A stretch of 8,782 nucleotides of DNA from Ignavibacteriota bacterium (GTDB taxonomy: Bacteria > Bacteroidota > Ignavibacteria > Tepidaquicellales > Tepidaquicellaceae), in the NCBI GenBank assembly GCA_003135995.1, contig PNBM01000103.1:20612-29393 (forward strand). The letters are read 5' to 3'. A program made the translations under genes and the position numbers. Each line of letters opens with the position of its first letter. The stretch's first letter is position 1. This document shows positions 1,039-8,782 of the stretch, in pieces. The notes beneath the pieces were generated by a model. It saw nothing but the letters and a program-made list of their open reading frames with translations. It did not search any database and was not told the DNA's origin.

Positions 1039-1073
1039 TTTGTTCTCCTTATTTAATTTTTTTTATCTTATAT

Positions 1074-1119
1074 CGTTCCCAAATGCCTGCCCAGACTTGT
1101 CGGGGTCCTCTTGGGAACG
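1074..1119. repeat. Nested palindromic repeat, CGTTCCCAA outer arms
   Basis: Perfect 9-bp outer arms CGTTCCCAA (1074-1082) and TTGGGAACG (1111-1119) enclose a second imperfect palindrome at 1090-1105 (CCCaGAC-TT-GTCgGGG, one mismatch). It lies between the stop of the membrane-protein gene and the start of the Ycf48-like gene. Neither strand has a T-run directly after the arms, so a dispersed repeat is more likely than a simple terminator. Confidence 0.75.
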
Positions 1120-1173
1120 AAAGAAAAATGTTAATATGTGCTTTTGTTTTCTATATCATCTTTTTTTGGTTTA

Positions 1174-1851
1174 TTATTTTGTTTCTTCTGTTTTTTTAAG
1201 CGTTTTCCTGAAAATTAATAAACTAAACCAAGGTAAAATAAAATAAACAAATTGCAATAAATCCGGGGAAAAAATACTTTTATATGCTTTCCTTATCCAA
1301 CGTTCAGGTAATTTTGTCGCGTTGTTGTATTGTTCACTCATATTGTCATTTAAAACATAGATAGTATCGTTGTATGGATTTGCAAGTTGGTTAATAGAAT
1401 TGCTGGTTATAGATCTTGTTGTCATTTTTCTTTGGAGTAAATCTTGTTGATGTATATCGACGATATAAAAAAGGGGAATTACTATAAGTGTAATGAATAT
1501 TATTTTTTTCCTCATTTTTCCATTCCAAATAAAGATAAGATATACAAGACCTGAAATTATTGCACAATAAAACATAAGAGATTGCATCTTAATACTTTGA
1601 CCCGATGAAATTAAGTTATCAGAGGATGTCTCTCTTTCCTGAAGTAAATTAATAAGAACAGAATGATTGCTCTTTAGAAATTCTCCATTAATATTGGAAA
1701 TATCAGCAGGAAATAATATTTTTATGTTTGAATCAATAGCTTCTGGAGGCTCATTTATAAAGGATCTTAAAAGAAAAAGGATTACTAATAAAAGGAAAAC
1801 AATTATAACAAAAAGCTTATTTGTTTTAATGAATTCAAATATTTTTTTCAT
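1174..1851 (-). CDS. Hypothetical four-helix inner-membrane protein
   Basis: I do not recognise the family. The 225-residue product starts at ATG 1851, supported by AAAGGAG at 1856-1862. Predicted membrane helices are at about residues 13-29, 91-109, 116-132 and 198-214. With a Lys-rich N-terminus (MKKIFEFIKTNK), the two large hydrophilic loops (about 31-90 and 133-197) would lie on the periplasmic side, and the middle KMRKK turn and the KKTEETK tail in the cytoplasm. No catalytic motif is visible. The second loop contains several Asn/Tyr residues and ends in an amphipathic stretch (PERWIRKAYKSIF) just before the last helix. The gene is AT-rich, like the gene upstream at 1947-2969, from which it is separated by 95 bp including a strong hairpin. 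The two may have been acquired together, but the hairpin argues against tight co-expression. Confidence 0.75.
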   Translation of the reverse strand: MKKIFEFIKTNKLFVIIVFLLLVILFLLRSFINEPPEAIDSNIKILFPADISNINGEFLKSNHSVLINLLQERETSSDNLISSGQSIKMQSLMFYCAIISGLVYLIFIWNGKMRKKIIFITLIVIPLFYIVDIHQQDLLQRKMTTRSITSNSINQLANPYNDTIYVLNDNMSEQYNNATKLPERWIRKAYKSIFSPDLLQFVYFILPWFSLLIFRKTLKKTEETK

Positions 1852-1855
1852 ACAA

Positions 1856-1862
1856 CTCCTTT
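1856..1862 (-). promoter_or_regulatory. Shine-Dalgarno AAAGGAG of the membrane-protein gene
   Basis: On the minus strand AAAGGAG is followed by TTGT and the ATG at 1851, a normal although short spacing. It contrasts with the gene upstream (start 2969), which has only A/T before its ATG. Confidence 0.7.
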
Positions 1863-1899
1863 TTTAGATAACTCTAAAATGGAAATAATTAACATGCAT

Positions 1900-1943
1900 T
1901 TTTCCTCTTGTTCCTAAAGCGAACTTTGGAAACAAGAGGAAAA
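1900..1943. repeat. Long hairpin after the AdkA/NDT-like gene (terminator or repeat element)
   Basis: Arms TTTTCCTCTTGTT (1900-1912) and AACAAGAGGAAAA (1931-1943) pair perfectly over 13 bp. The interior continues as CC-(t)-AAAG / CTTT-GG with single-base bulges, closing on a four-base loop CGAA (TTCG on the minus strand). It begins three bases past the stop codon of the minus-strand gene at 1947, the right place for a terminator of that gene. The minus strand reads ATGCATG after the stem rather than a T-run, so intrinsic termination would be weak. The core is a variant of the GTTCC(C)AA palindromes found elsewhere in the window. Confidence 0.7.
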
Positions 1944-1946
1944 TAA

Positions 1947-2969
1947 TTATTTTTGTGCAAATTCTTCCAGATGAACGAATAATTCTTCAAAAGATGGAAC
2001 TATTATTTTTGTGGCATCAGATAAAAATGGACTTGCTTTAAATGGGAAGAGCATATAAACTGGTTTGCCATTTCTATTCGCATATATGATTTCGCTCATG
2101 ACTCCCGGAGATAATTTCTCAGTCATATAAATAACAACGACAGCATCTGATTGATCGATAAATTGATAATCTCTTTGAACAGTCCTTGATTTAATTATAT
2201 CGATACCTTTTTTAGTTAATTTACTAACGTTTGGAATGGAATTAGTAAGTTTCATGTCTTCAATCGACAATGGGTTAAAAACAATAAAAATTTTTTCTAA
2301 TTGATCAAGTATTGGTCCTTGTATTTTTTTTAATAGTTGAGGATTTGATTTTTCAATTGCTGTTATTGGATAACTTAAATAAATTTTCTTTTTATTAGTA
2401 CACATTAAATCTGATAAATTGGATATATTATGTTGACTTGATACTAAATATATAGGGGCATTAGTCATGTCAGCGAGCATTTCAGTAATAAATTCTTCCT
2501 CCATTAACCAATATTGAGTTTCTAATAAATCTGGTAGTTTTACGCTTTTCCATTTCGGATTTTTCTTATTTGTTTGATAAATATCTGTGACATTATTAAT
2601 AACATTTATGAATCCATCAGGTTTTAAACTTAATATCTCATTAATAGTAAATCCAGGAATTAATCTTTGTTTCCATCTGAATGTAAGATGAACACCGATT
2701 AAATGAAATTCAATATTAGAATTTTTTAATATTTCAGAATTAATTTCACTAATAGCCAAACTTCTTGCTAAAGATAATGTATTTAAATCCAAATCTAATA
2801 TGCTATCATCCTCAACTTTAATTTTGTTTTTTGCACATACTTGTCTAATAATATTTCCCAAATCATAAATCATAACATTTTTTTTCTTTCTCTTTAATTC
2901 TTTTTTTATATCTTCTAAAAATTCAATTCTCCCACTTCCAGATATACCAGTAAATATCCATTTATTCAT
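1947..2969 (-). CDS. Fusion of adenylate-kinase-like P-loop domain and nucleoside 2-deoxyribosyltransferase-like domain
   Basis: The product has 340 residues. Residues 1-180 follow the layout of archaeal-type adenylate kinase AdkA: beta strand and P-loop-like GISGSGRI (residues 8-15), a basic helix, YDLGNIIRQV (35-44, compare the nucleotide-binding region after the P-loop), FHLIGVHLTFRWKQRLIPGF (88-107, compare the DTH...GYLPGLP segment), LKPDGFINVIN (115-125), and LMEEEFITEML...APIYLVSSQ (155-179). The Walker A Lys and Ser/Thr are replaced by Arg13... more exactly GR-I stands where GK-S/T is expected (Arg14, Ile15 counting Met as 1), so ATP hydrolysis is doubtful. Residues 195-310 resemble nucleoside 2-deoxyribosyltransferases: KIYLSYPIT (195-203), FNPLSIED (231-238), FIDQSDAVVVIY (270-281) and PGVMSEIIYANRNGKPVY (288-305), where Glu293 fits the catalytic Glu. 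The ATG has no clear Shine-Dalgarno. Substrate is unknown; modified nucleotide turnover or stress/defence signalling are possibilities only. Both domain calls are by eye. Confidence 0.75.
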   Translation of the reverse strand: MNKWIFTGISGSGRIEFLEDIKKELKRKKKNVMIYDLGNIIRQVCAKNKIKVEDDSILDLDLNTLSLARSLAISEINSEILKNSNIEFHLIGVHLTFRWKQRLIPGFTINEILSLKPDGFINVINNVTDIYQTNKKNPKWKSVKLPDLLETQYWLMEEEFITEMLADMTNAPIYLVSSQHNISNLSDLMCTNKKKIYLSYPITAIEKSNPQLLKKIQGPILDQLEKIFIVFNPLSIEDMKLTNSIPNVSKLTKKGIDIIKSRTVQRDYQFIDQSDAVVVIYMTEKLSPGVMSEIIYANRNGKPVYMLFPFKASPFLSDATKIIVPSFEELFVHLEEFAQK

Positions 2970-3198
2970 TTTTAAAATTTTAATTGATTTTATAAAATAT
3001 TTTTAAAAAAATAAGAAATGCATCTCCTCCGTGTTGCGATGTGTTATGTTCTCATATTGAATGTAAATATTTTTATTTTATTTTTAAATGATTAAAAAAA
3101 TATAAATTATTTAGGGTTTGATACTTTACGGGAGGGAGGTTTTGCGGTTTTTGTTGGTTTGAATTACCGGAACTTGAGCGATATAAATATTTAATAAA

Positions 3199-3232
3199 AA
3201 AAAACGTTCCCTGCCGATAGGGAACGTTTTTT
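3199..3232. repeat. 14-bp perfect hairpin with A/T flanks (terminator-shaped palindrome)
   Basis: Arms AAAAAACGTTCCCT (3199-3212) and AGGGAACGTTTTTT (3219-3232) are exact complements around the six-base loop GCCGAT. An A-run on one side and a T-run on the other give it the form of a bidirectional intrinsic terminator. No gene ends nearby on either strand (it lies between divergent genes), so it may instead be a compact member of the CGTTCCC repeat family. Confidence 0.75.
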
Positions 3233-3334
3233 AAGAAAGGTAGAGCAATGACTATCAAAAAAGCACTTGCAATTCAAATTTATATATAATTTTTTGATTT
3301 TAAAAGCAAATTTTTTTTCTGAGTCAGAATACTC

Positions 3335-3376
3335 AAAAGCACACACCCCTAAATCCCCTCTTTATAGAGGGGACTT
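3335..3376. repeat. CCCCTAAATCCCCT palindromic element, copy 1 (simple loop)
   Basis: A 25-bp sequence starting at 3335 (AAAAGCACACACCCC...) recurs exactly at 3394. In this copy the arms TCCCCTCT (3354-3361) and AGAGGGGA (3366-3373) pair perfectly around TTAT. With one mismatch the pairing extends to 3351-3376. Similar 'cccctaaatcccc...ggggactt' palindromes are dispersed in many bacterial genomes. Confidence 0.75.
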
Positions 3377-3393
3377 TTAAGTGGAGACTTATG

Positions 3394-3468
3394 AAAAGCA
3401 CACACCCCTAAATCCCCTTCCCGACAAGTCGGGATCAAAAGCAAAGAGCGACTTATTAGAGGGCACTT
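3394..3468. repeat. CCCCTAAATCCCCT palindromic element, copy 2, with inserted palindrome
   Basis: The left 25 bp (3394-3418) are identical to copy 1 and the right side (AGAGGGCACTT, 3458-3468) matches copy 1 with one change. Between them are 39 bases instead of 6. The extra DNA starts with the palindrome TCCCGACAAGTCGGGA (3419-3434), so the loop of the element appears to have received an insertion of roughly 33 bp. Confidence 0.7.
3419..3434. repeat. Small palindrome TCCCGACAAGTCGGGA
   Basis: Seven-bp perfect arms TCCCGAC/GTCGGGA around AA. The same module, with one mismatch and a TT centre, sits inside the unrelated CGTTCCCAA element at 1090-1105. Confidence 0.75.
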
Positions 3469-3477
3469 ATAAAAAAA

Positions 3478-3519
3478 CGTTCCCAATCCTGAAACAAGTT
3501 CAGGAGGAGTTTGGGAACG
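3478..3519. repeat. Nested palindromic repeat, CGTTCCCAA outer arms, second copy
   Basis: Outer arms CGTTCCCAA (3478-3486) and TTGGGAACG (3511-3519) are identical to those at 1074-1119. The inside differs: here it is TCCTGAA (3487-3493) / TTCAGGA (3499-3505) around ACAAG. Same outer frame, different inner palindrome. Confidence 0.75.
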
Positions 3520-3533
3520 AGGGTTAAAAAATA

Positions 3534-3698
3534 TTCCGCTTAAGCGGGAAAATTATCTGCTTAAGAGATTCAACAAATAATTAAGCGGGGAAATGTTCCG
3601 CTTAAGCGGGAAAATGTTCCGCTAAAGCGGGGAAATGTTCTGCTTAAACGGGAAAATGTTCCGCTTAAGCGGGAAAACTTTCCGCTCAGGCAAAAAAA
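3534..3698. repeat. Seven-unit 21-bp tandem array of CCGCTTAAGCGG palindromes
   Basis: Units begin at 3534, 3555, 3596, 3617, 3638, 3659 and 3680. The consensus is TTCCGCTTAAGCGGGAAAA followed by two spacer bases, mostly TG. Each unit centres on the 12-bp palindrome CCGCTTAAGCGG. Spacing is exactly 21 bp except unit 2, which carries an exact 20-bp insertion (3566-3585), with TTAAG on both sides (3561-3565 and 3581-3585). The outermost right unit (3680) has decayed on its right side. The array ends about 280 bp before the first barrel gene. Confidence 0.85.
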
Positions 3699-3746
3699 TA
3701 TAGAAACAAACAAAAAATGAAATGAACTTAGATAAAAAAATTAAAA

Positions 3747-3778
3747 TCTTTCGCGGGATATTTTTCGGGAACGAAAGA
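3747..3778. repeat. Partial CGAAAG/GGGAACG palindrome
   Basis: TCTTTCG (3747-3753) pairs with CGAAAGA (3772-3778). The right half GGGAACGAAAGAAA is the same as the sequence at 1113-1126 beside the first CGTTCCCAA element, so this looks like a degraded member of that family. Confidence 0.5.
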
Positions 3779-3976
3779 AATAAAATTTGGGTTTTATTGA
3801 ATCTATATATTAGATTAGCATTTATTTTGTTCTTTAGTTTTAACGAATTTTAGGATGAATGGAGATGATAAAAAGTGATGAGATAAATAAATTTCTCAAA
3901 ACTTTTTTCGGAGGATACGAGTTAATTTTCTGTTTAAATTAATTTTTCAAAAACTTTATTTTTCAGGGAGAACGTT

Positions 3977-4735
3977 ATGAAAAAGAATATTTTAGCTCTA
4001 CTAATTTTATTATTAACTGTCAATTTTTTAAATGCCCAGTCGAAAGATATGAATGACTGCGAAGGCTGTAAAGGCGATTTCGGGTTTGTGAATTTTCTTA
4101 TGGGACCGAGCATTCCTATCGGAAACTTCGCGGATAAAAGTTTAACAAATTCGAATGCGGGTTTTGCGGACGTAGGCTCGAAGGTTGAACTTAATGCTGG
4201 AATTCACCTTACACCCGTTATTAGTGCAAATTTCAAGGCATTCTATTCCGTGAACGGTTTCGATATTGCGAGCTATACAAGCGCACTTTCGCAGAATTCC
4301 CCGGGAACGGTATGGAAAACCGCAGGCAGAAGCTATGATATATACGGCGGATTGCTCGGACTTTCTTATTCCTATCCGGGTCTGGGAAAATTTGTCGCGG
4401 ACTTTAAAGCTATGGGCGGCTTGATGCAAATTTCGAGCTCGGCTTTTAGCGTATCGAATAATATAGGGGAAAGTCTTAGCGGAAGCAATTTTTCGGCGAC
4501 TTCATTTGCGTATATGATATCTATGGGCGGTTATTATCCGATTGGAAATTTGATTGACCTTACGGGAAGCTTAGAATATCTTGGCTCAAAACCTGAGATG
4601 CAAAATAATAATTTTGCTATTAATACTCCTCCTAAATCAGCAACATCTACGAACACCGTCAATACAAGTTTATCAAACGTAAGGCAGGACGTGAGTTTGC
4701 TGACAATTAATCTGGGCGTGAGACTGAAATTTTAA
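3977..4735 (+). CDS. Outer-membrane beta-barrel protein, paralogue 1
   Basis: The product has 252 residues. The start is fixed by GGGAG at 3966-3970, six bases before ATG. Residues 1-20 are a signal peptide (hydrophobic core LALLILLL, cleavage at LNA/Q21). The mature N-terminus has a CxxC pair, Cys28-Glu-Gly-Cys31. The rest alternates amphipathic strands with Gly/aromatic turns and ends in GVRLKF, with the terminal Phe typical of substrates of the BAM assembly machine. Conserved blocks shared with the two downstream genes include GPSIPIGNFADK, GFADVG, PGTVWK, KAMGGLMQ, and GGYYPIGNLIDL. Length fits an 8-10-stranded barrel of the OmpA-like/OMP_b-brl type. It acts in the outer membrane; transport, adhesion or structural role cannot be told. 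Unlike its paralogues it lacks the TGGCAC promoter element, and the repeat-rich region lies just upstream. Confidence 0.85.
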   Translation: MKKNILALLILLLTVNFLNAQSKDMNDCEGCKGDFGFVNFLMGPSIPIGNFADKSLTNSNAGFADVGSKVELNAGIHLTPVISANFKAFYSVNGFDIASYTSALSQNSPGTVWKTAGRSYDIYGGLLGLSYSYPGLGKFVADFKAMGGLMQISSSAFSVSNNIGESLSGSNFSATSFAYMISMGGYYPIGNLIDLTGSLEYLGSKPEMQNNNFAINTPPKSATSTNTVNTSLSNVRQDVSLLTINLGVRLKF

Positions 4736-4773
4736 ACTGCAAAATTTTTAATCGGGTTTTTAACAGGAACTAA

Positions 4774-4962
4774 AGTCAATATAATGGAATTCAGATTCCT
4801 CGGGTTGGAGGCTCTTTGAAATTAGCCTTAAAATATTTTGGTGAAAAGGAAATAAAGAAAACAAAGATTGAAAAGGAATTCGATTTATACCGATGGAATT
4901 TCCGATTAATCCCTGCTCTAAAACAATGCGGGAATTCCGGGATGACAAAGAGGAATCTATGA
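4774..4962 (+). pseudogene. Possible remnant of a C39-like peptidase gene
   Basis: A 62-codon frame is open between stops at 4771 and 4960 but has no start codon with a ribosome binding site. Its translation contains GGSLKLALKYFGEKEI and, after about 20 residues, RLIPALKQCG. These resemble the first helix of papain-like C39 peptidases (CGPASLKMVLKYFG) and the later LVKALKKLG helix. The catalytic Cys position is occupied by GG, and the frame ends in repeat-like sequence (GGGATGACAAAGAGGAATCT). If the resemblance is right, only about the first 50 residues of the domain remain. It could equally be chance in a repeat-derived sequence. Confidence 0.25.
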
Positions 4963-4977
4963 AGCATTATAGCAAAT

Positions 4978-5005
4978 TTTCACGTTTCACATTTCACCTT
5001 TCACG
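4978..5005. repeat. Four tandem heptamers TTTCACN
   Basis: TTTCACG, TTTCACA, TTTCACC and TTTCACG follow one another without gaps. This is a short low-complexity tandem repeat with no evident function. Confidence 0.7.
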
Positions 5006-5172
5006 ATTTTACCAAAAAATTTAATCTCCTGTTTTAATTTTACTTTATTATAGTACAGCGATTAAATAAGAAATTAATCCGGTTTTCATAGTCTAAATAC
5101 TATCTTTTAAATTATAATTCTTAACATTCATATCTTTTTACGTCCAAAAAAGTTTAAAAACCGTCATTTTTT

Positions 5173-5187
5173 TGGCACGATATTTAC
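5173..5187 (+). promoter_or_regulatory. -24/-12 (sigma-54-like) promoter candidate of barrel gene 2
   Basis: TGGCAC (5173-5178), five bases, then TTAC (5184-5187). Sigma-54 promoters read TGGCAC-N5-TTGC, so the match is full in the -24 box and differs by G to A in the -12 box. Transcription would start near 5199, giving a leader of about 40 bases to the ATG at 5239. The same element with the same TTAC stands before barrel gene 3. Confidence 0.55.
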
Positions 5188-5223
5188 AATATATAATGGC
5201 TGACATTGCTATTTATAAAAAAT

Positions 5224-5231
5224 AAAGGGAG
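5224..5231 (+). promoter_or_regulatory. Shine-Dalgarno that sets the start of barrel gene 2
   Basis: AAAGGGAG lies seven bases before ATG 5239. An in-frame TTG at 5206 would add eleven residues in front of the signal peptide, has no site of its own, and would place this sequence inside the gene. ATG 5239 is therefore preferred. Confidence 0.8.
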
Positions 5232-5238
5232 CTGTAAT

Positions 5239-5976
5239 ATGAAAGTAATTTTTTACATTTTATTACTTTCATTATCATTTTCTACTGCGTGCTATTCACA
5301 AACTAATAATGATAATGAAAATCACTCTTTAAAAGGTGATATCGATTATGTTTATTTAGCGGTCGGTCGGAGTGTGCCGATGGGAGATTTCGCCAGTAAG
5401 GATATGAGCAACAGGAATTCCGGATTTGCAAATGCGGGTTATAAAATAGAAATAAATGCGGGATATCACCTTGTAGAAAATCTTTATGCGAATGCGAAAT
5501 GTTTTTATTCAAATTATAATTGCGATGCATCGGTCTTCATGAATTTTTTTCAGAAACAAAATCCTGAAATGACATGGAGATCGAACGGAATGAACTGGAA
5601 TCTGGCGGGCTTAATGATAGGACCGGCGTATATTTTTAATGTCAGTGAACATTTTACTTTGGAAGCAAAATTGCTCGGAGGTATTATGCAATCGAGGAGT
5701 ACAGGATTGACGCTGACTGCAAGCGACGGCTCTACATTTACAGAAGATGATAAATCGGCTTTATCATTCGTGAATACGATTTCAATCGGCGGAATTTATC
5801 CGGTCAAAAAAGCATTTAATATATCCGGTAATATTGAATACGTTAACGCTGACCCGAATTTTGAAAATGTTAATACTACAATAAAGACGAGTAAATCTGT
5901 AAGTACTGTAAATTCGACAATACATCAGCATATAAATTTATTGTCATTTAATCTTGGAGTGCTTTTTATATTTTAA
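5239..5976 (+). CDS. Outer-membrane beta-barrel protein, paralogue 2
   Basis: The product has 245 residues from ATG 5239. The signal peptide is MKVIFYILLLSLSFSTACYS with cleavage before Gln21, as in the two paralogues. A lipobox reading (STAC) is weak, since position -3 is Ser rather than Leu. The mature region aligns along its whole length with paralogues 1 and 3: VGRSVPMGDFASKD, SGFANAGYK, GYHL, PEMTW, LLGGIMQS and SIGGIYPV; it ends LGVLFIF with a terminal Phe. It lacks the CxxC pair present in both neighbours (residues 25-34 read DNENHSLKGD) and has an unusual end, LFIF instead of RLKF, so it is the most divergent copy. It stands alone behind its own -24/-12-like element. Location: outer membrane; role unknown. 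Confidence 0.85.
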   Translation: MKVIFYILLLSLSFSTACYSQTNNDNENHSLKGDIDYVYLAVGRSVPMGDFASKDMSNRNSGFANAGYKIEINAGYHLVENLYANAKCFYSNYNCDASVFMNFFQKQNPEMTWRSNGMNWNLAGLMIGPAYIFNVSEHFTLEAKLLGGIMQSRSTGLTLTASDGSTFTEDDKSALSFVNTISIGGIYPVKKAFNISGNIEYVNADPNFENVNTTIKTSKSVSTVNSTIHQHINLLSFNLGVLFIF

Positions 5977-6061
5977 ATTCGTTTTCATAATTATTTTTTA
6001 GCTTTTTTAATTAAACGGTTTATATTTTATATATTCCGGCATTTCATTTATTTTTAATTCC

Positions 6062-6080
6062 AGTCTTAAAATAGTCTTAA
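6062..6080 (+). promoter_or_regulatory. Direct repeat AGTCTTAA x2, possible activator site for barrel gene 3
   Basis: AGTCTTAA occurs at 6062-6069 and 6073-6080, 11 bp apart (one helical turn), beginning 86 bp before the TGGCAC box. AGTCTAAA at 5090 stands 83 bp before the matching box of barrel gene 2. Sigma-54 promoters need an enhancer-binding protein bound at about this range, so the placement is suggestive but rests on short motifs in AT-rich DNA. Confidence 0.35.
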
Positions 6081-6147
6081 CTTTCTCTTTTTGAGAAAAC
6101 CAATATCATTAAAAAGTCAAATAAAATCAGATAATTAATGTTTTCTT

Positions 6148-6162
6148 TGGCACAATATTTAC
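6148..6162 (+). promoter_or_regulatory. -24/-12 (sigma-54-like) promoter candidate of barrel gene 3
   Basis: TGGCAC (6148-6153), AATAT, TTAC (6159-6162). It shares with the element before gene 2 the flanking TTTGGCAC and ATATTTAC, within otherwise diverged DNA. The first base lies 70 bp before the ATG, against 66 bp at gene 2. The expected start of transcription is near 6174. Confidence 0.55.
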
Positions 6163-6204
6163 TATGAGAATAATGTCTGGTTTCTTTTCTTAATTTTAAA
6201 TAAG

Positions 6205-6210
6205 AAAGGA
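6205..6210 (+). promoter_or_regulatory. Shine-Dalgarno AAAGGA that sets the start of barrel gene 3
   Basis: AAAGGA is seven bases before ATG 6218. The in-frame TTG at 6212, two codons earlier, would be only one base from this site and is unlikely to be used. Confidence 0.75.
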
Positions 6211-6217
6211 TTTGAAA

Positions 6218-6952
6218 ATGAAAACAACATTATTTATTTCACTTCTCGCTGTTTTATGTTTTGCAACAGGTCACGCCCAGGAAAATAACTGTGTCAACTG
6301 TATGAAAGCAGACAATGGTTATATAAATCTCTTCATCGGTCCGGGAATTGCGCTTGGAGATTTTGGCAGTAAGGATATCGGAAACAATTCATCCGGTTTT
6401 GCGGAAAAGGGTTATAACGTAGAATTAAACGGAGGATATCATCTTACAAAATCTTTAGACCTAAGTGCAAAATGTATTTACTCACTTTTCAATTACGACG
6501 TTTCGGGAATGCTGAGTTCATATTCAGTAAAATATCCCGGAACAACGTGGAAATCGCTTGGAAGAGAATGGGAATTAATCGGCGGACTGGCAGGGTTTTC
6601 TTACCTTCAGCCGCTTGGTAAAAATTTTATAGCAAACGTAAAAGTTCTCGGCGGTGTTATGCAATCAACTGCACCTGAATTAACTTTGAAAAGCAGTGAT
6701 GGTGCATCTTTCACGGAAAGCAAAAGATCTGCGTCGTCTTTTGCATATTTATTTTCAGTCGGCGGAACTTACCCGATTGGGAATTTGATTGATTTAGCGG
6801 GAAACATAGAATACATAAGCACGGCTCCGACATTTAATAATGTGACTCAGTCGTTTAATCCTTCTGTTGATTCGCCTGTGACGACGACTTCAAATATAAA
6901 ACAGAATATCGGAATGCTTGCATTCGATATCGGAGTAAGATTAAAATTTTAA
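6218..6952 (+). CDS. Outer-membrane beta-barrel protein, paralogue 3
   Basis: The product has 244 residues from ATG 6218. The signal peptide MKTTLFISLLAVLCFATGHA is cleaved before Gln21. The mature N-terminus carries Cys25-Val-Asn-Cys28, matching the CxxC of paralogue 1. Conserved blocks are GPGIALGDFGSKD, SGFAEKGY, PGTTWKSLGREWEL, KVLGGVMQS, and GGTYPIGNLIDLAGNIEY; the end is IGVRLKF with terminal Phe. It looks mosaic: the middle loop SSDGASFTE resembles paralogue 2, the PIGNLIDL and RLKF segments are those of paralogue 1. It is preceded by its own TGGCAC element and ends 18 bp from the stop of the convergent PNGase F-like gene, with no obvious terminator between. Outer-membrane barrel is confident; function is unknown. 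Confidence 0.87.
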   Translation: MKTTLFISLLAVLCFATGHAQENNCVNCMKADNGYINLFIGPGIALGDFGSKDIGNNSSGFAEKGYNVELNGGYHLTKSLDLSAKCIYSLFNYDVSGMLSSYSVKYPGTTWKSLGREWELIGGLAGFSYLQPLGKNFIANVKVLGGVMQSTAPELTLKSSDGASFTESKRSASSFAYLFSVGGTYPIGNLIDLAGNIEYISTAPTFNNVTQSFNPSVDSPVTTTSNIKQNIGMLAFDIGVRLKF

Positions 6953-6970
6953 GAACGGGATAATATATTT

Positions 6971-8641
6971 TTACTTATTTCCAATTTCCGAATTTACGCT
7001 GAAACAATAGCGGATTTCTGCGCCGAAATCCGGAGGGAATGTTTTTAAAGTATCTCCTTCGATATTTATGATTGAAATTTTTCCGTTATTACCGATTCGT
7101 TCAGGATGGTCGCGCTCCCACCAGTGCCGCATCATGCCGTCGCGTTGTTTGTCAGTGAGAAGGAAAACGTAACATCCGTCTGAGAGATTTATTTTTTCAT
7201 CATAAACTGCGTTGTCCTCAAATTCGTTTTTTGCAAAATAAATTTTTCCGCTGCCGTCGAAAATCGTATAAGAGTTTTCTTTCGCCCTGCCTAAATCAGT
7301 GGCTTCGATGTGCAAAATAAAATTCTGTGGAAGTGTGGCCGGCGTCGAAACTACAGCGGACAAAATATTATTTGAAAGATTTTCATCGGGCATATTATTA
7401 GGATTGCTGATTTCAACCGTGAAAATGCTTTCTTCGTTCATTCCGTTCCAATCGGGCGGAGGTAAATAAACTTCCTGAGTTTCGAGAAATTTTAAATTTC
7501 CGTTCCATTCGAAATAAGATTTTTTTCCGTTTAATAGTCCGTAAGAAATTTTTGCGGAACGCAAAACTCCTGCACCATGATTTTTAATTATAATGCGCGG
7601 ACTTCCGCAGATAGGATTATCACGGCTGTAACCTTCATATTTATTCGGAGCAATGATATCTTCTATAGTTGCGTCGTTTTGGAAATTCGGAGTGCCGTAA
7701 TAAATTATCTGGTGCGACTCTACGAACTCGCCGTCTTTTTCACCGTTATTTGTGTAAGGCTGAATTTCATAATCAAAATTCGGAATGGTATCGCCGGGCG
7801 CGAAGAGATTTGAAATATCGAATTCAAAAGTTAATGCAGGCGAGCCGGGACACCAGCCGGCGCGGTCGAAGGGCCAGGTGCCGCCCTGCGGGAAAACGGG
7901 ATTGTGACTGCAATCTTTCCATACCGTCCAGTAAGCAATCGTGCTTCTTCCTTCGCTTGTTCCGTAAGTATATTTCATTTGTTTGCTGTCCCATTCACAG
8001 CAGGCATAGGGACCGACTTCGCGATGACCCGTGATTCTTGCTTTGAGTTTATAACCTTGAGAATCTTTTCGGAGAATAATATTTTTTGGCGTGAGCTTTT
8101 TATTATCGGACAAATCAGAATATTTATACATTCCCCACGGATAAATATTTTCAATTGCAATCACGTTGCGCGCCGGTGTTCCTTTTACAAAAATAAATTT
8201 CATATCGAGAAGTTCCTGCAAATTGCCGGAAGAAATATCTACATCGCCTTTTAATATCGGCGCATAGTCCGTAACATCATAAAAATAAGACCAGCCTTTT
8301 TCGCCGTTAAAGTCGAGGCGTTTGCCGTAAGGGGTTACGAAGTTTTCAAGTTCAAAAATTTCTTTCGCCGTATCGCCGGGAAAATGCGGAACGTAAACAA
8401 GTGTGTTCGTTGTGTAATCCCATTCACCGCAGGGATATTTATCGTGTTTCGTTTCCCAATCGCATTTGAGTGTGCGGACGAGAATTATTTTTGCCCAGTT
8501 TCCGTTTTCGGGAAATTGAAATATTCCGCGGCGTTTTGTAATATCGTTAAAAGTGAAAGTCTGAACGATTAATGTATCGCCGGCGGAGGCAAATAATATT
8601 TCCGGAAAGATAAATAAAAATAATAGTAAAATATTTTTCAT
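6971..8641 (-). CDS. Secreted peptide-N-glycosidase F-related protein
   Basis: The product has 556 residues. The signal peptide is about residues 1-20 (cleavage near ASA/GDT). PNGase F enzymes release N-glycans from Asn. The N-terminal domain shows Cys60...Cys71-Gly-Glu-Trp-Asp75, matching the C..C-x-E-W-D segment with catalytic Asp60 of the Elizabethkingia enzyme. The C-terminal PNGase F domain shows ITGHREVG (203-210), Cys214-Cys215-Glu216 (Glu216 fits catalytic Glu206), and WKDC244...PQGGTWPFDRAGWC264PG, fitting the Cys231-Cys252 bridge. The Cys two residues after the catalytic Glu is Asp218 here. Residues about 320-430 look like a CARDB/Ig-type domain (ATIEDIIAP...NPNNMPDENLSNN), and 440-550 like another beta-sandwich. 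The chain ends SVNSEIGNK without a T9SS sorting domain. No Shine-Dalgarno is seen before ATG 8641. Family is confident; activity is not proven. Confidence 0.88.
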   Translation of the reverse strand: MKNILLLFLFIFPEILFASAGDTLIVQTFTFNDITKRRGIFQFPENGNWAKIILVRTLKCDWETKHDKYPCGEWDYTTNTLVYVPHFPGDTAKEIFELENFVTPYGKRLDFNGEKGWSYFYDVTDYAPILKGDVDISSGNLQELLDMKFIFVKGTPARNVIAIENIYPWGMYKYSDLSDNKKLTPKNIILRKDSQGYKLKARITGHREVGPYACCEWDSKQMKYTYGTSEGRSTIAYWTVWKDCSHNPVFPQGGTWPFDRAGWCPGSPALTFEFDISNLFAPGDTIPNFDYEIQPYTNNGEKDGEFVESHQIIYYGTPNFQNDATIEDIIAPNKYEGYSRDNPICGSPRIIIKNHGAGVLRSAKISYGLLNGKKSYFEWNGNLKFLETQEVYLPPPDWNGMNEESIFTVEISNPNNMPDENLSNNILSAVVSTPATLPQNFILHIEATDLGRAKENSYTIFDGSGKIYFAKNEFEDNAVYDEKINLSDGCYVFLLTDKQRDGMMRHWWERDHPERIGNNGKISIINIEGDTLKTFPPDFGAEIRYCFSVNSEIGNK

Positions 8642-8659: not shown

Positions 8660-8782
8660 TTTGTAGCCGCAGGCTTTAGACTGCGTTTTGCTCTTGTAGC
8701 CGCAGGCTTTAGACTGCGTTTCGTTATTGTAGCCGCAGGCTTTAGACTGCGTTTTGCTCTTGTAGCCGCAGGTCGAAGATTC
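8660..8782. repeat. 33-bp tandem repeat upstream of the PNGase F-like gene, cut by window edge
   Basis: TTGTAGCCGCAGG begins at 8661, 8694, 8727 and 8760, exactly 33 bp apart. The first three units share an identical 27-base core that contains the inverted arms CGCAG and CTGCG; the last six bases alternate TTGCTC, TCGTTA, TTGCTC. The fourth unit departs after 13 bases (TCGAAGATTC). The array begins 20 bp before the start codon of the minus-strand gene, so that gene's promoter must lie within or beyond it. Six-base gaps are too short for CRISPR spacers. Confidence 0.85.

Follow-up and report, generated by a model that had tools for sequence, protein, structure and literature searches.

An AdkA-like domain joined to an NDT/DNPH1-like domain: a conserved fusion with predicted deoxynucleotide chemistry

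What does a protein do that joins a nucleotide kinase fold, lacking its usual phosphate-binding residues, to a deoxyribosyltransferase-like fold? The question is raised by a 340-residue open reading frame (ORF) in an 8,782-nt stretch of DNA from an Ignavibacteriota bacterium (contig PNBM01000103.1, positions 20,612 to 29,393), which as a whole we call the window. The N-terminal half of the encoded fusion protein resembles archaeal AdkA, and the C-terminal half resembles nucleoside 2-deoxyribosyltransferases (NDTs) and the hydrolase DNPH1. The pairing of two nucleotide-handling folds in one chain is real, and it marks a conserved family rather than a curiosity of one genome. What the protein does is a specific prediction from its residues. 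Most likely the N-terminal half binds first and the C-terminal half then cleaves or transfers, the order that the original prediction had proposed.

The fusion and its family

Both folds are supported by several routes. The Pfam model AAA_17 matches residues 7–124 with 29.7 bits (cut-off 27), and Nuc_deoxyrib_tr (PF05014) matches residues 261–308 with 26.0 bits, just under its cut-off of 28.8; many homologues carry a precomputed PF05014 label. Weak matches are also seen to the NCBIfam AdkA model NF003122 (26.3 bits; cut-off 155) and to the PHROGs nucleoside 2-deoxyribosyltransferase model (E 5.9e-4). An AlphaFold2 model (pLDDT 91.4, pTM 0.89) was compared with known structures, which supports an AdkA fold and an NDT/DNPH1 fold. 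Pfam, the model and the structure comparison agree with the two folds first read from the sequence. No family spanning both halves was found in Pfam, NCBIfam, PHROGs or PADLOC, as had been expected, and the JGI annotation already labels some members ‘adenylate kinase/nucleoside 2-deoxyribosyltransferase’. Literature searches, at the level of listings and abstract openings, turned up no paper on the pair; their coverage did not extend to the 2015 survey of nucleotide-centric systems, where a prior mention is possible.

Among 5.8 billion clustered proteins, 282 homologues were found at E 1e-3. Of the 120 best listed, 117 align with at least 97% of the query, so the search for homologues with the same fusion that had been called for bore the pairing out. 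A profile built from 24 divergent rows found at least 321 homologues at E 1e-5; the number is a minimum, as scoring was confined to candidates sharing most words. GTDB contigs contain 22 loci, 21 of which match most of the query length. By title they fall in Sphingobacteriales (1), Anaerolineae (2), other Chloroflexota (2), Caldiserica (4), Bacillota (1), Ignavibacteria (1), other bacteria (2) and archaea (8).

The distribution is patchy. The protein is the single match in its own genome, and among 29 genomes of its family and 294 sampled genomes of its class the source genome alone has a full-length match; eight others in the class sample have partial ones. One family genome (G311) encodes a diverged 401-aa protein that matches model positions 113–341. 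A sample of 296 genomes from the phylum adds two with matches of about 40 residues only. For the phylum of the genome with locus L011 (titled Chloroflexota), 8 of 251 sampled genomes carry the fusion, that genome included. Phyla are intermixed in a 43-row tree, where the fusion protein, two database proteins and the copy from Sphingobacteriales form one well-supported group (100/98). Standalone NDT-like proteins of the YLSGGME type, present in some of the genomes of the class sample with partial matches, are distant relatives only.

Several relatives showed features of their own. Much diverged proteins at L040:1432-2634 and L023:2930-4333 (about 401 and 467 aa) match the fusion family in their C-terminal parts and look kinase-like by eye in their N-terminal parts; the L023 protein lies near an ORF that resembles a transposase by eye. 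A standalone YLSGGME-type protein overlaps a gene that, again by eye, resembles alanine racemase in L042, L043 and L044, which come from three genomes of a single genus. The reading frame of one Anaerolineae copy is broken near its start (L003:10001-10039), and that of a close relative (L005) is open.

Conserved residues in the two halves

Residue counts come from 149 aligned rows: the fusion protein, 134 homologues and 14 loci. The rows are not independent: the homologues were taken from the top of the ranking, some proteins appear both as a locus and as a homologue, and one homologue row (P0001) is a fragment of the fusion protein itself. Three rows are fragments at Walker A, which leaves 146 with letters there. 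Table 1 lists the features.

Table 1. Coordinates of the fusion gene, its domains and motifs, and the adjacent ORF within the window
Feature	Position	Strand	Basis or conservation
Fusion protein ORF, ATG start, 340 aa	1947..2969	minus	ORF call
AdkA-fold domain, residues 1–190, probably pseudo-kinase	2400..2969	minus	
Variant P-loop GISGSGRI, residues 8–15, Arg14 at the Lys place	2925..2948	minus	Arg in 140/146
Walker B region without Asp, residues 92–104, GVHLTFRWKQRLI	2658..2696	minus	His94 and Phe97 in 149/149
NDT/DNPH1-fold domain, residues 193–340	1950..2393	minus	
YLSYPIT, residues 197–203, includes triad Tyr197	2361..2381	minus	Tyr197 in 149/149
Pro233, hand-aligned to the transferase Pro	2271..2273	minus	149/149; NDT sequences; strand unaligned by hhalign
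Asp267, predicted triad acid/base	2169..2171	minus	149/149; aligns with Asp61 of the DNPH1-like profile
SPGVMSE, residues 287–293: Ser287, predicted 5'-phosphate contact; Glu293, predicted nucleophile	2091..2111	minus	both 149/149; hhalign to the DNPH1-like profile
SPF, residues 313–315: Ser313, predicted second phosphate Ser	2025..2033	minus	Ser 144, Gly 5 (149 rows); aligns with Ser108 of the DNPH1-like profile
225-aa ORF downstream of the fusion gene, 95 nt apart, hydrophobic by eye	1174..1851	minus	ORF call

The N-terminal domain aligns with a profile of three archaeal AdkAs (E 2.5e-11) and has the AdkA fold, but the Walker A Ser/Thr and the Walker B Asp are absent. The P-loop indeed reads GISGSGRI, without the Lys and Ser/Thr, as first noted. 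At the Lys place the family has Arg in 140 rows, Lys in 4, Ala in 1 and Ser in 1; the next place, Ile15 here, is Thr in 4 of the 146 rows and Ser in none. The Walker B Asp is found in none of the 149 rows, its place being filled by Gly (124, including Gly92 here), Ser (15), Ala (9) or Thr (1). His94, Phe97, Trp154 and Glu158 are invariant. The description of a ‘broken Walker A’ thus holds for the motif and not for its cause: the Arg-containing form is conserved across homologues, which rules out simple decay of this copy.

The missing Lys alone is no proof of inactivity, because methanococcal AdkA has Gly at that place. The absence of both metal-site residues argues more strongly for an inactive kinase. 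With all three residues gone, the domain likely binds a nucleotide and does not phosphorylate it; binding is suggested by the conserved fold and the retained His94 and PG segment. Three of five fusion-bearing archaeal genomes searched also encode an ordinary AdkA that scores above the family cut-off and has the motifs GxPGVGK[ST]T and DTH, and these three make up the AdkA profile; in the other two (those of L014 and L022) no AdkA scored above it.

The residues of the C-terminal half suggest an active enzyme suited to 5'-monophosphates. The Tyr/Asp/Glu triad of the NDT superfamily is complete (Y197, D267, E293), each residue in all 149 rows. Asp275 and Glu293 had been singled out originally, and both are kept (144/149 and 149/149), but the predicted catalytic Asp is Asp267; Asp275 lies outside the triad and aligns with Asp69 of a DNPH1-like profile. 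This profile was built from the source genome’s own DNPH1-like protein and its homologues, and rat and human DNPH1 are not among its members. A profile-profile alignment (E 1.6e-6) puts D267, S287, E293 and S313 in register with their DNPH1-like counterparts.

Two features set the predicted substrate and reaction. In DNPH1, the triad is Y24/D80/E104, S98 and S128' hold the phosphate and E55 is required for the hydrolytic step (PMC10603095). Ser287 stands six residues ahead of the catalytic Glu, at the place of Ser98, and Ser313 stands at the place of Ser128, so the DNPH1 pair of phosphate serines is present by hhalign columns (149/149 and 144/149). NDTs contact the 5'-hydroxyl via Asp or Asn (PMC12884076). 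LlNDT, PDT and BpNDT have Asp six residues ahead of the catalytic Glu, where the LlNDT alignment places Ser287 (149/149); the NDT Asn corresponds to Ser313 by hand alignment, and a weak hhalign match to LlNDT alone puts that loop off register. The NDT Asp/Asn pair for the 5'-hydroxyl is therefore absent. With DNPH1-type 5'-phosphate residues in an NDT-like half, 2'-deoxynucleoside 5'-monophosphates (dNMPs) rather than nucleosides would be the expected substrates.

The second feature concerns a Pro that is conserved in all known transferases and excludes water (PMC12884076). All 149 rows have a Pro after the second strand (Pro233 in the fusion protein), at the place of the hydrolytic Glu55 of DNPH1 by hand alignment, hhalign having left this strand unaligned. 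In the fusion protein the strand ends in FNPL and the LTEHV motif with the hydrolytic Glu is absent; residues 232–233 are N/D-P in every row. A preference for deoxyribose is indicated because Tyr197 stands where the ribose-using MilB has Phe (PMC10603095). Taken together, these residues predict a dNMP-level enzyme that leans to transfer, like the phage enzyme DmtZ.

Our preferred reading, held tentatively and at a little under an even chance, is a pseudo-kinase-like nucleotide-binding half joined to an NDT-superfamily half that attacks the glycosidic bond of dNMPs and prefers base exchange. Ser287 and Ser313 would hold the phosphate of the dNMP; as in DNPH1, a neighbouring subunit may supply Ser313. 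Glu293, oriented by Tyr197, would displace the base to form a deoxyribose-5-phosphate ester, and Asp267 would protonate the leaving base. Pro233 would exclude water, so that a second base preferentially resolves the intermediate and slow hydrolysis is a side reaction. The pseudo-kinase half would serve as a nucleotide sensor or a substrate-capture module. The cellular role is likely dNMP-level salvage or pool sanitation.

A bolder and rather doubtful extension is that such proteins are widely scattered cellular deoxyribose-5-phosphate transferases that swap dNMP bases directly and are switched on by a nucleotide on the kinase-derived sensor; this chemistry would then belong to cells too, beyond the Z-DNA phages. 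If the preferred reading is true, nucleotide metabolism gains a conserved pseudo-kinase/glycosyl-transfer fusion common to bacteria and archaea, a natural hybrid active site in which the hydrolase-versus-transferase question of the NDT superfamily can be tested, and a possible source of dNMP base-exchange catalysts.

Genomic setting and alternative explanations

Neighbouring genes were called by a mechanical ORF script, and some are probably not genes. The 225-aa ORF downstream of the fusion gene may be co-transcribed with it. It has no convincing family match in Pfam, NCBIfam, PADLOC or PHROGs, and distant relatives were found in 2 of 196 other genomes of the class sample. The GC content is 26.6% in the fusion gene and 26.8% in the next gene, against 34–41% in the other genes of the window. 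A stretch of about 8 kb that includes the fusion gene (window −1060 to 6993, contig G000:C163) has no counterpart at the collinear position of two other genomes of the family, where about 1.2 and 1.6 kb lie instead. Lateral acquisition is probable, given that the fusion gene and the next gene are AT-rich and lie in this stretch. Contamination of the contig is ruled out: the flanking gene at 6971–8641 shares 80% and 77% identity with its counterparts in the same two genomes, and the DNA on both sides is collinear. Its product has a PNGase F C-terminal domain (PF09113, E 7.9e-7), with matches in 15 of 29 family genomes, its own included. Promoter-like sites near the fusion gene number 10, fewer than in shuffled sequences (mean 16.7).

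Elsewhere in the window, three tandem plus-strand genes (3977–4735, 5206–5976, 6212–6952) have products that look alike by eye, one with a weak match to an outer-membrane beta-barrel model (E 0.071). Short near-palindromic tandem repeats were seen by eye at 3530–3690 and 8660–8782 (GTTCCGCTTAAGCGGGAAAA-like; TGTAGCCGCAGGCTTTAGACTGCGTTT-like).

Across 17 loci no gene neighbourhood is shared apart from lineage-local pairs. One Chloroflexota genome has a thymidylate kinase gene that overlaps the fusion start by 4 nt and, on the downstream side, a guanylate kinase gene; genes adjoining the fusion in other Chloroflexota are gatB or superoxide dismutase. All four Caldiserica loci have an upstream gene overlapping the fusion by 4 nt (no Pfam match, tested in L009 only). 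A sigma-factor-like gene precedes it in three (also Pfam-tested in L009 only), and the fourth contig (L007) starts there. Six Geothermarchaeota-type loci have a membrane protein gene before the fusion, with a VTT domain by the Pfam test made in L020; five of the six have an Rpr2-like gene nearby.

These observations and the residues above bear on four other explanations. The protein might be a hydrolase only: a DNPH1-like N-glycosidase that breaks down dNMPs that are modified or unwanted, the pseudo-kinase serving as scaffold. The phosphate serines and triad match those of DNPH1 (PMC10603095), but the Glu of LTEHV that drives DNPH1 hydrolysis is gone, the invariant Pro233 is transferase-like, and the source genome already has a separate 139-aa DNPH1-like protein (L038:1393-1809, minus strand; E 9.7e-23 to the rat Rcl structure 2khz, E 3.6e-22 to 4fyh); we regard this as unlikely, though the most probable of the four. 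A bifunctional enzyme, in which base exchange is followed by phosphorylation of the dNMP by a kinase with an unusual P-loop, is improbable. Arg14 could contact phosphate, methanococcal AdkA also lacks the Lys, His94 and the PG segment are retained, and two of the five archaeal genomes have no AdkA above the cut-off; against it, 142 of 146 rows lack the Ser/Thr for Mg and all 149 lack the Walker B Asp.

NDT-type domains presumably belong to the DrHyd branch of the TIR/DrHyd/SLOG clade, and the fusion could be an enzyme or effector of NAD+ or nucleotide signals in defence or stress, with the pseudo-kinase as sensor. TIR, DrHyd and SLOG are described as a single clade of Rossmann-like domains whose members act on nucleotides and NAD+ (PMC9503650). 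The fusion family has a patchy distribution, and the gene here is AT-rich and in a lineage-specific stretch. PADLOC models also match some neighbours: 24 models among 93 of 97 neighbour proteins from the 17 loci, each in at most four (mad8 in 4; HerA, QatD and others in 1 each; mad2 and mad3 within the same range of 1–4). No defence system recurs among these 93, and the 25 Pfam families among the neighbours’ listed matches are mostly ordinary metabolism. The fusion protein itself has no family match in PADLOC-DB 2.0.0 (E up to 1), and at the sensitivity of the searches neither plasmid and phage records nor IMG/VR gave a match. The phage-defence role that had been suggested is thus not borne out, and we consider this explanation slightly less probable than a bifunctional enzyme. 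Least credible is a non-enzymatic regulator that only binds nucleotides: the overlapping upstream gene in Caldiserica and the sigma-factor-like gene ahead of it would suit such a role, but the catalytic triad of the C-terminal half is complete and invariant.

Comparison with known systems

The preferred reading, a nucleotide-binding pseudo-kinase with a dNMP-level transferase, differs from each known system in part. Compared with archaeal AdkA, the fusion protein scores far below the NF003122 cut-off, lacks the Lys, Ser/Thr and Walker B Asp and has a second domain. It shares the triad and both phosphate serines with DNPH1/Rcl (2'-deoxynucleoside 5'-phosphate N-hydrolase), but lacks LTEHV, has Pro233 in place of Glu55 by hand alignment and carries the extra N-terminal domain. 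With LlNDT, PDT and BpNDT it has in common the fold, the triad and probably the Pro after the second strand; the 5'-hydroxyl Asp is replaced by Ser287 and, by hand alignment, the Asn by Ser313.

The combination of a phosphate-accepting site and the transferase Pro in DmtZ of Z-DNA phages (PMC12884076) may recur in the fusion protein, in a comparison made by description and, for the Pro, by hand. The triad of DmtZ has Asn77 where the fusion protein has Asp267, and it occurs separately or fused to a dUTPase-like domain, with no kinase-like domain in the portion of the text available (PMC12884076). The HGPRT/adenylate kinase of Zobellia galactanivorans (PMC7326950) likewise fuses a base-transfer enzyme to an adenylate kinase. 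Its transferase is a phosphoribosyltransferase rather than of the NDT type, and it is reported to be bifunctional, so its kinase works (PMC7326950).
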